Shown here one piece after another: positions 34,872 to 46,824 of a stretch of DNA of 64,000 nucleotides. The position numbers and the translations under genes are program-made. The notes below the pieces were generated by a model, which was not told the origin of the DNA, did no database searches, and saw only the letters and a program-made list of their open reading frames with translations. Each line of letters starts with the position of its first letter. The first letter of the stretch is position 1. Origin of the DNA: Amycolatopsis pithecellobii (GTDB lineage Bacteria > Actinomycetota > Actinomycetes > Mycobacteriales > Pseudonocardiaceae); the NCBI RefSeq assembly GCF_009707865.1, contig NZ_WMBA01000041.1, forward strand, positions 1 through 64,000, read 5' to 3'.

Positions 34872-34878
34872 AACCCCA

Positions 34879-35110
34879 GAGTTGGGTGGTCATCCCGGAG
34901 GCAGCCCGTCCGGCGAGGACATCTTTTGATCTTGTGGTCGCGCTTCGCGCGATGCCCTTCGGGCTCTCTGGCGGGTGACCGGGCGCGGGGCGCCCTCGTT
35001 CCAGCGGGGTGGGTATGGGCGTTGGGCCCACTCGCTTCGCATCGACGGCCGCCGGTTTCGTCGTGGGGCGTGGCCGGTTGGGGCCCATTGGCTTTCGTCG
35101 ACGGCCGCCA
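34879..35110 (+). repeat. dispersed intergenic repeat, copy A
   Basis: This about 230-base non-coding block fills the space between the convergent isochorismate synthase and PPTase genes. It is closely similar to the reverse complement of 45803-46078. The longest shared identity is 31 bases (34937-34967 here, 45992-46022 there), and a 24-base identity lies at about 35007-35030. It has two adjacent hairpins (TCGCGC-TTC-GCGCGA and GCCC-TTC-GGGC) and two copies of CGACGGCCGCC about 55 bases apart. Its first 19 bases match the arms of the long inverted repeat at 46104-46258. It encodes no credible protein. Confidence 0.8.
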
Positions 35111-44866: not shown

Positions 44867-44933
44867 GGCGCGTATCAGGAATTGCCGCTTCCGGGTGGAT
44901 GTTCCGGCGGCGGTGACGAGTCACCATCGGTTC

Positions 44934-45734
44934 ATGACTGATCGAGCCTTCCGGTTCGGTGTGGTCGGTACCGGCACCGATCTCGCCACCTGGACCGCCC
45001 TCGCGCGCAGGGCAGAAGCTGCCGGTTATGACACCCTGGTGTCGCCTGATCCGCAGGTAAATCTGGATCCGTTCACGATCATGTCCGCTGCTGCCGCGGT
45101 GACCGAACGTTTGCATGTCGGCACTTTCGTCGCGGTGGACAAGTTCCGGGACCGGCGTTTACTGGACTGGCAGGCACGCTCGCTACACCAGTTCACCGGC
45201 GGGCGATTTGAACTGGGTCTCGGTACCGGGCGCCCGGATGCCGCTGAACGTGTTGTGGCGCTTGGGGGTTCTTGGGACCATCGGTACTCGCATTTGGTAG
45301 AGACCATTGATTTCCTGAAGAAGCAGCCCGATCGTCCGCCGTTGCTGCTGGCTCCCGGTGGGCCGAAAATGATCAAATTGGCTGGGCGGGAAGCTGATAT
45401 CGTGACCATGGCTTGGCTGCCACGCACCACCGAAGCCGATGCGCGGTCTATTGTGGACAGTTTTCGGGCGGGTTGTGACAGACTGGATGACGTTGAGCTG
45501 GCGGTGAACCTGCTTGCCGTTGGCGACGACCCTGCGCCGTGGCTGGAACGCTTCGTCGGCGCGACCGTGGCGGACTTGGCCGCCGCCGGTGCGGTCACCG
45601 TGCTGCCGGGCACACCCGAGCAGGGCGCGGAGACCCTGCGGCGCTGGCGAGCAGAGCTGGGGATTTCTTACGTGACGGTGAATTCCGGCTACCTGGACCA
45701 GTTCGCACGGATCATCGAGCTTTTGCGGCGGTAG
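44934..45734 (+). CDS. LLM-class F420-dependent oxidoreductase
   Basis: The protein is 266 residues from ATG 44934 (MTDRAFRFGVVG). It has the luciferase-like TIM-barrel pattern: TALARRAEAAGYDTLVSPDP, RLHVGTFVAVDKFRDRRLL, and the family loop FELGLGTGRPDAAERVVALGG. Members usually use F420 or flavin to reduce or oxidise small molecules. A GTG at 44895 would add 13 residues and is less likely. The substrate is unknown. The gene ends at the start of the repeat-rich 559-base gap. Confidence 0.88.
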   Translation: MTDRAFRFGVVGTGTDLATWTALARRAEAAGYDTLVSPDPQVNLDPFTIMSAAAAVTERLHVGTFVAVDKFRDRRLLDWQARSLHQFTGGRFELGLGTGRPDAAERVVALGGSWDHRYSHLVETIDFLKKQPDRPPLLLAPGGPKMIKLAGREADIVTMAWLPRTTEADARSIVDSFRAGCDRLDDVELAVNLLAVGDDPAPWLERFVGATVADLAAAGAVTVLPGTPEQGAETLRRWRAELGISYVTVNSGYLDQFARIIELLRR

Positions 45735-45802: not shown

Positions 45803-46078
45803 GAAACCGGCGGCCGTCAACGAAAACCGAGAGGGCCCAACCGGCCACGCCCCACCGCGAAAACCGGCGGCCGTCGATGCGAAGCGAGCAGGGCCCAACG
45901 CCCATACCCACCCCCGTCCGCGAACACTCACAGATCGGGGCGGGGGTGGGCCCACTCGAGAACGAGGGCGTCCAGCGCCCGGACAACCGCCAGAGCCCGA
46001 AGGGCATCGCGCGAAGCGCGACTTCAAGATCAAAAGAATGCCTCGCCGGCGGGCAGGCTCCGGGATAACTGGCCCAAC
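45803..46078 (-). repeat. dispersed intergenic repeat, copy B
   Basis: Copy B of the repeat described at 34879-35110, in the opposite orientation. It occupies the first half of the 559-base gap between the LLM oxidoreductase and the convergent membrane-protein gene. It shares the 31-base core (45992-46022), the double hairpin and both CCGGCGGCCGTC units. Relative to copy A it contains about 45 extra bases near 45910-45955, which include GGGGCGGGGGTGGGCCC. No credible gene lies in it. A 15-base palindrome, CACCTTGGCAAGGTG (46086-46100), separates it from the next element. Confidence 0.8.
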
Positions 46079-46103
46079 GGGACCTCACCTTGGCAAGGTG
46101 GTC

Positions 46104-46258
46104 GAGTTGAGTGGTCATCCCGTCGCCTGCGGTTTTCGAATATCACTTTTCCTCAGGGCCGCAAGCTTTGTGTTCTCGGGCGGCGGTCCCGGCGCCTGTT
46201 GCGGCCCTGAGCAAAAGTGATTGTTCCTTTGTCAGGCGACGGGATGACCGCCCAACTC
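46104..46258. repeat. 155-base long inverted repeat (two-tier stem)
   Basis: The outer arms are 46104-46129 and 46233-46258 (26 bases, including a perfect 17). The inner arms are 46142-46164 and 46199-46221 (23 bases with one mismatch). They are separated by a 12/11-base internal loop and capped by a 34-base loop. About 49 positions can pair. GAGTTG begins the left arm and CAACTC ends the right. The arm sequence GAGTTG(A/G)G(T/C)GGTCATCCCG also occurs at 34879-34897 in repeat copy A. A T-rich tract (ATTTTATTTT) follows at about 46285. No open frame inside looks real. It could be a terminator, structured RNA or a miniature mobile remnant. Confidence 0.85.
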
Positions 46259-46293
46259 TGGGGCTTTTTCGAGCCTGCCTCGGCTATTTTATT

Positions 46294-46824
46294 TTACCAG
46301 CAAATAACGAGCAGGCATGACGGTTTCGGTTGTGCCGTGCTCGACGTTTTCGATGTCGAATTCGACGGCTGGCTACTGCTCGTCGGAGTTGTGGTGACCG
46401 AAGGACCGGCGGTCGAATCATCATGCCCGGGAGTTGCGGAATCGGTGACCGTGACGGTCTGCGTTTCGCTTTCGCCCGCGCGGTGTGTGCGCGGGATTTC
46501 GTTGATGCCCGCACCGACCGCGCCGGGTGCCTGGTTGGTCACCACGATGGTCTTATTGGTCGCAGTAACCTCGGAACCACTTGGTGTGACAGCAACTCCG
46601 CCGCCCGCGAGCCCACCCGTCGGCGGGTGTGGCAGGTTGAACACGGACGGTGAATCGGCCTGCGGTTCCTTCGATCCGAAGTGGACGAGGAGTGCGGCGA
46701 GCCCGCAGCCCAGCACCACAGCGAGCATCACGGCGGTCATCCGCATGCGCCCGTTGGACTTGCGAGCGGGCCCACCCCAGCCCTCGCGTTCGAGCAGCTC
46801 GGCCACCGACACTTCGTCGTTCAC
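46294..46824 (-). CDS. single-pass membrane protein with Thr/Ser-rich exterior
   Basis: The protein is 176 residues from a GTG. The cytoplasmic N-terminus (EVSVAELLEREGWGG) is a motif often seen in short actinobacterial membrane proteins. One membrane helix spans about 30-48 (TAVMLAVVLGCGLAALLV). The rest is a Thr-, Ser- and Pro-rich low-complexity exterior ending in CLLVICW. It has no enzyme signature. Function is unknown; cell-envelope attachment or sensing is possible. It converges on the long inverted repeat. Confidence 0.75.
   Translation of the reverse strand: MNDEVSVAELLEREGWGGPARKSNGRMRMTAVMLAVVLGCGLAALLVHFGSKEPQADSPSVFNLPHPPTGGLAGGGVAVTPSGSEVTATNKTIVVTNQAPGAVGAGINEIPRTHRAGESETQTVTVTDSATPGHDDSTAGPSVTTTPTSSSQPSNSTSKTSSTAQPKPSCLLVICW

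Follow-up and report, generated by a model that had tools for sequence, protein, structure and literature searches.

An intergenic region of Amycolatopsis pithecellobii, lying in the window (the whole 64,000-nt stretch of DNA analysed), holds a two-tier hairpin, P, which together with a conserved partner motif, B, makes up a dispersed repeat unit. The element is a structured 3'-end repeat found mainly in Pseudonocardiaceae, and searches of an open-access library listed no account of it. Judged by the substitutions in its stems, P is kept paired by selection on a strand-specific single-stranded structure, be it RNA or ssDNA. We favour the reading that the unit is a two-part RNA module, also carried by AICEs and plasmids, which would act at gene 3' ends as a terminator or insulator, and we put the probability of this reading at slightly under one half (about 0.47). 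The folded form is probably RNA (or ssDNA), and its most likely role would be to stop transcription between genes that face each other. What makes the element valuable is that it offers a testable, strongly covarying structure of known strand, present both in rolling-circle integrative elements and at chromosomal gene ends of antibiotic producers. It would show how one and the same structure can serve as the signal of a mobile element and as a 3'-end part in the chromosome, and it bears on the spread of dispersed palindromes without a RAYT transposase.

Anatomy of the hairpin and its partner motif

The first-pass annotation had described a two-tier inverted repeat in a convergent intergenic region, with outer arms of 26 nt, inner arms of 23 nt including one mismatch, and a 34-nt loop, and the arms and the setting were both borne out, the plus-strand neighbour ending at 45734 and the minus-strand neighbour at 46294 (Table 1). 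The inverted repeat is real and far from chance: the outer arms are 92% complementary with 103 nt between them, the inner arms 96% complementary with 34 nt between them. On either strand, the RNA fold of the window hairpin is more stable than all of 200 dinucleotide shuffles (z = -10.1 for the plus and -12.4 for the minus strand), and model R1 scores P at 148.1 bits on the minus strand versus 105.3 bits on the plus strand. The minus-strand neighbour encodes a 176-aa protein without a match in Pfam or NCBIfam, whose reading frame is present in 19 of 19 genomes of the genus, A. pithecellobii included.

Table 1. Features of the window around the hairpin. RNA sense refers to the minus strand.
Feature	Position	Strand	Basis
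Luciferase-like monooxygenase gene, convergent neighbour	44895..45734	+	PF00296
Gene for 176-aa hypothetical protein, 3' end 35 nt from P	46294..46824	-	ORF; homologues in genus
P, two-tier hairpin of ~150 nt; internal loop between outer stem and 23-bp inner stem, end loop of ~34 nt	46104..46258	-	arms, folding, alignment, R1 score
Outer stem, 5' arm in RNA sense	46233..46258	-	arm search, covariation
Inner stem, 5' arm in RNA sense	46199..46221	-	arm search; 15/23 inner pairs with two-sided changes in 49 copies
Inner stem, 3' arm in RNA sense	46142..46164	-	arm search, covariation
Outer stem, 3' arm in RNA sense	46104..46129	-	arm search, covariation
Spacer with small CACCTT...AAGGTG hairpin	46070..46103	-	sequence and fold
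B core, conserved partner motif of P	46040..46069	-	B core expression in 117/134 copies
T-rich tract 3' of B in RNA sense	46026..46039	-	sequence; family profile, T up to 97% at one position
T/G-rich tail beyond P, TGGGGCTTTTTC; might act as terminator tail in the other direction	46259..46270	+	sequence; family profile
Repeat A, P end sequence fused directly to B module, after ORF ending 34871	34874..34935	+	repeat comparison

The extent of the element had been given as 155 nt, but the conserved unit is larger and in the window spans about 46026-46258. Across the family it measures about 235-245 nt (as a repeat about 245 nt, and longer in the genomes G006 and G014) and consists of the P hairpin, of B some 50 nt off on the minus strand, and of a T-rich tract, which in the profile of 134 aligned copies follows B on that strand. 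The spacing is nearly fixed, with 44-75 nt, mostly 46-55 nt, between the B core and the aligned end of P in these 134 copies. A short expression for the B core matches 117 of them, and among the 17 that it misses, the six inspected by eye all carry a diverged B. At the other end of P, conservation ceases just outside the hairpin; there, the plus-strand T frequency in the family profile is 0.34-0.40, compared with 0.12-0.20 further out. The stretch that follows P on the plus strand is T/G-rich, although a run of at least four T occurs in only 15 of 132 copies. P is very stable, but in the RNA sense the T tract comes after B and not after P, and B alone has a weak fold of its own and no strong terminator hairpin. 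Two draft contigs of G017 (L039, L052) begin or end within the element; since draft contigs break inside it, drafts may contain more copies than are counted.

The first-pass annotation had also placed the hairpin beside a dispersed repeat B and had noted arm sequence shared with a repeat A. Both observations hold, B being a regular part of P's own unit and repeat A an end sequence of P joined to B. Repeat A lacks the palindrome, and the A. pithecellobii genome has comparable forms at other places, either joined or made of B plus spacer. Two 56-nt direct repeats, 71% alike, lie at 45804-45916 in the same intergenic region as P, and a large part of this gap is built of dispersed modules.

Rfam 15 gave no match at gathering score within the window; five miRNA-model matches in 45900-46350, below threshold at permissive E-values, were judged to be chance.

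Covariation and strand-specific wobble

A T/G wobble between the arms had been taken as a hint that pairing is selected. In the window copy, the outer-arm differences comprise one A.C and one T.G in the plus-strand reading, so that this single copy is no proof of selection; the support comes instead from covariation across the family, which the first-pass annotation had proposed to look for. In alignment A1, which has 44 pairs and 49 copies selected to be less than 88% identical, 97.7% of the stem cells are paired, and the paired fraction falls to 30-42% when the partner is slid by 1-3 columns. Two-sided changes occur at 21 of the 44 pairs, compared with a mean of 11 in shuffles and 7-10 in slid controls, and the 157 two-sided cells stand against 38.5 in shuffles, none of 500 shuffles reaching as high a value. 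Split by helix, the changes fall on 15 of 23 inner and 6 of 21 outer pairs. Exact-pattern sampling had fixed the core of the outer arms in most copies and left the inner stem unconstrained; the invariance of that core is therefore a product of the search pattern and carries no evidence value.

With the RNA sense defined by B lying downstream of P, the inner helix of the 49-copy alignment contains 24 G.U but only 2 A.C cells (p = 1e-5), while the outer helix, at 14 to 6 (p = 0.12), has no significant asymmetry by itself. Summed over the 23 inner pairs, the 134-copy set gives 48 G.U to 5 A.C (tabulated from the other strand as A.C versus G.T). A second set, of 21 copies whose orientation was fixed by B and which come from G002, G008 and other genera, yields 59 to 8 (p = 1e-10), or 23 G.U versus 8 A.C when distinct position-types are counted; as the copies are related, the cells behind these counts are not independent of one another. 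This set was made up of the best-scoring loci of the family scan plus three from G002 and G008, with L222 excluded (no B), L220 included, and L208 left out because of its Amycolatopsis type. An AICE-type set of 21 that included L222 and not L220, taken by strand of match, gives 23 to 13, but the position of B shows 10 of its copies to be in the wrong orientation. The strong excess of G.U over A.C on the strand that has B at its 3' end argues that the structure is selected in single-stranded form, on the minus strand. An ssDNA fold would likewise favour G.T over A.C.

Among 43 ortholog pairs, 112 stem cells differ; 43 of the differences are compensatory, 17 are one-sided but still paired, and 52 leave the pair broken in one copy or in both.

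Distribution and placement at gene ends

The 7.9-Mb genome of A. pithecellobii contains three full copies (one in the window, on contig C80, the others on C9 and C133) and, on C88, a partial one; the palindrome is matched on both strands, and the six matches obtained there correspond to three elements. The first-pass annotation had proposed to look for multiple copies in related genomes; in a covariance-model scan of the genus (up to 150 candidates scored per genome), 16 of 19 Amycolatopsis genomes matched at E 0.01. Over the match lists of several searches, the richest genomes have at least 35 (G012) and at least 38 (G015) distinct places. Amycolatopsis, Prauserella, Saccharomonospora and Thermocrispum are the genera among the matches listed in an exact-pattern scan (at least 118 stretches). 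Across Pseudonocardiaceae, matches come from 75 of 200 genomes, spread over 30 of 46 genera, mostly with few copies per genome outside Amycolatopsis, where up to 15 candidates per genome were scored. An order-wide draw yielded matches in 19 of 298 genomes, all 19 of them in Pseudonocardiaceae.

Copies are strongly enriched where genes converge. In 8-kb loci, the 77 element-bearing gaps were convergent in 54 cases, tandem in 22 and divergent in 1, compared with 10, 56 and 43 among 109 control gaps of at least 150 nt (Fisher 3e-18 for convergent enrichment). Context counts use gene calls from a codon model, which missed the 176-aa gene of the window, and refer to the 101 of 134 copies with both neighbours called (the other 33 have no called neighbour on one side). 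Among these, 69 are convergent, and in them the median distance from P to one stop codon is 25 nt and that from the B side to the other is 322 nt; three are divergent, and the tandem ones show a weak bias, 19 sense versus 10 antisense. Because the sites are mostly convergent, either orientation of the unit is sense to one gene. In some copies, what looks like an ordinary terminator separates P from the stop codon.

On the reading that we favour, a transcript from the gene at 46294-46824 would fold P from 35 nt past its stop codon and would then reach B and the U-rich tract, where the mRNA could be ended or trimmed. Read from the opposite strand, the P hairpin and the T/G-rich tail behind it could terminate transcription of the convergent gene. 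The P+B module would insulate converging operons on AICEs and on the plasmid described below; it may have moved between such elements and chromosomes by transfer, in either direction, and then have multiplied in Amycolatopsis. A terminator or insulator RNA would account for the 3'-end placement, the tails and the pairing kept in chromosomal copies. Like a structured RNA, the element covaries and prefers G.U to A.C on one strand, and of the identities suggested by the first-pass annotation, a structured RNA and a dual terminator draw support from covariation, wobble asymmetry, location and T-enriched tails, all of them features of sequence. The element shares with intrinsic bidirectional terminators the hairpin between convergent genes and the T-enriched tails; unlike them, it has a two-tier stem of ~40 bp and a conserved B, and it belongs to a dispersed family that is also present on mobile elements.

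Mobile elements and rival readings

Twenty loci were read from low-copy hosts, 17 in other genera plus three in G002 and G008, and 12 carry AICE genes, namely a small-protein homologue and an FtsK/TraB-like gene. The small protein resembles the SCO3933 regulatory family (NCBIfam, below cut-off). Among the remaining eight loci, a tyrosine integrase was confirmed by Pfam at L230, L242 and L247, and a tRNA gene is found at L237, L242 and L245; at L236, L239 and L244 neither was seen. Both AICE loci scanned for RepSA contain it (PF20199, E about 1e-152), and P lies on the strand of the FtsK/TraB-like gene in 12 of 12 AICE loci, which share ancestry and so represent few independent events. In A. 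pithecellobii, a RepSA gene lies 8.5 kb from the C133 copy, on the same strand. AICE transfer uses a TraB/FtsK-type protein, and Nudix genes are often aboard, according to passages of PMC3218068.

The window element itself matched neither plasmids nor phages. An AICE-type query found no phage match either; it did reach a circular Streptosporangium plasmid (NZ_CP109466, 16,264 bp), at first through B only, after which the model located P, at 49.6 bits, between two converging genes. B overlaps one of these genes at its annotated end; by coordinates P is on the FtsK-like strand. The plasmid encodes a G2P-type Rep (PF23343, above the Pfam cut-off), an FtsK-like protein just below cut-off, GntR and ParA. 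Its gene order is repeated twice with the same protein accessions, and it looks like a dimer of a ~8.1-kb plasmid. A second locus outside Pseudonocardiaceae, in G648, has P at 48.2 bits together with B.

Single-strand origins (sso) of rolling-circle plasmids are big strand-specific hairpins in a mostly non-coding stretch, RSB and CS-6 being known sso boxes. P+B could be such an origin, or another ssDNA signal, of rolling-circle AICEs and plasmids, where the displaced strand would fold and prime lagging-strand synthesis, and the chromosomal copies would be dispersed descendants. We consider this somewhat unlikely, although it accounts for the rolling-circle link and the fixed strand: a rolling-circle Rep is present on the same replicon (RepSA or the G2P-type Rep), the strand is constant in the 12 AICE loci and on the plasmid, the C133 copy has its RepSA neighbour, and P is one big strand-specific hairpin in mostly non-coding DNA. 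However, beyond the common ancestry of the 12 loci, the element differs from an sso in its tens of chromosomal copies at gene ends, where pairing is kept and an sso is without obvious use; the placement at gene 3' ends and the T tract are left unexplained. Nor does RepSA track copy number in the genus: G006 is rich in copies yet lacks a RepSA match at E 1e-10, and G010, G013 and G018 have RepSA matches but no element. We favour the 3'-end RNA over the replication origin; both may hold in different contexts.

Comparison of orthologous sites speaks to gain and loss. In 18 of 18 relatives, the element is not found within 1.5 kb of the orthologue of the 176-aa gene, and it is found near this gene in 1 of 19 species. 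Of 88 copies, 36 fall into 13 clusters in which the genes upstream are related (>50% identity). At one shared site, whose upstream gene we take from its C-terminus to be whiA, P and B are present in G014, G006, G015 and G009, and a contig of G017 ends inside P. G007 has lost the inner hairpin there and kept the outer stem and B, and G016 lacks the whole element, so that the element is dispensable at this site. At the empty site in G016 (a single site, judged by eye), no target-site duplication is recognisable because the flanks have diverged. Between the converging genes of these loci (L267-L273), more hairpin-like modules follow B and vary by species, and P is separated from the stop codon by a short GC-rich and an A-rich segment.

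The element could also be a selfish REP- or MITE-like repeat without host function, its structure serving some mobilising enzyme and its copies persisting where they do least harm. Of the miniature mobile element remnant that the first-pass annotation had considered, one part stands: the element is dispersed, multi-copy, not found near the orthologous gene in 18 of 18 relatives, with an empty site in G016, and tied to integrative elements; it is nevertheless structurally intact. REPs of other phyla likewise lie beside 3' ends (as described in part of PMC3733652). Yet neither a transposase nor a target-site duplication was identified in a search of one transposase family and at the one empty site viewed by eye: Y1_Tnp (PF01797, Y1, RAYT-type) matches in only 1 of the 19 genus genomes, G013 (E 0.001), which is itself without an element match. 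Copies at orthologous genes also mostly stay paired while their loops diverge, even if 52 of the 112 differing cells involve a broken pair, and on balance we regard a purely selfish repeat as unlikely.

Less probable again is a route by which the cis-acting hairpin of an AICE or plasmid became a mobile module of the chromosome, the elements' HUH-type Rep placing copies at gene ends in trans (REP-like, without RAYT), and was later put to use as an RNA structure at 3' ends. Template switching or gene conversion readily corrects long palindromes, and homogenisation between copies could carry paired changes. That such events within or between copies produced the arm identity without selection is nevertheless highly improbable, since a strand-neutral correction would not yield the G.U excess of 24 to 2 and 59 to 8 on one strand unless transcription biases mutation by strand.

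In the broad sense, the element is REP-like, being a multi-copy intergenic palindrome enriched at gene 3' ends. REP, BIME and REPIN sequences are dispersed palindromes with alternating inverted modules, intergenic, by 3' ends and often between convergent genes (sections of PMC3733652). The element resembles these families (GTAG with RAYT; CGTC without a dedicated transposase) in its dispersed, intergenic, 3'-end placement and differs in size and in RAYT: P measures ~150 nt rather than 20-40 nt with a GTAG or CGTC tag (judged by size), and no RAYT was found with it in the 19 genomes, for which reasons we rejected a REP/RAYT system. It also has, unlike them, a regular companion B, strand-specific wobble and an occurrence on AICEs and a plasmid.

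MITE-type repeats such as ERIC are intergenic palindromes of about 120-160 nt in tens of copies. P is of like size, setting and number; it differs in having B on one side only, and neither a parental transposon, in the one transposase family searched, nor a terminal duplication, at the one empty site compared by eye, was found. An integron attC was discarded by eye, the element's end motifs being inverted relative to the attC pattern. Finally, a second GC-rich palindrome lies downstream of B at L210, L212 and L217, around GACCGGCG..CAGCCGCACGCCC (by eye), and could be a candidate further origin or transfer site.
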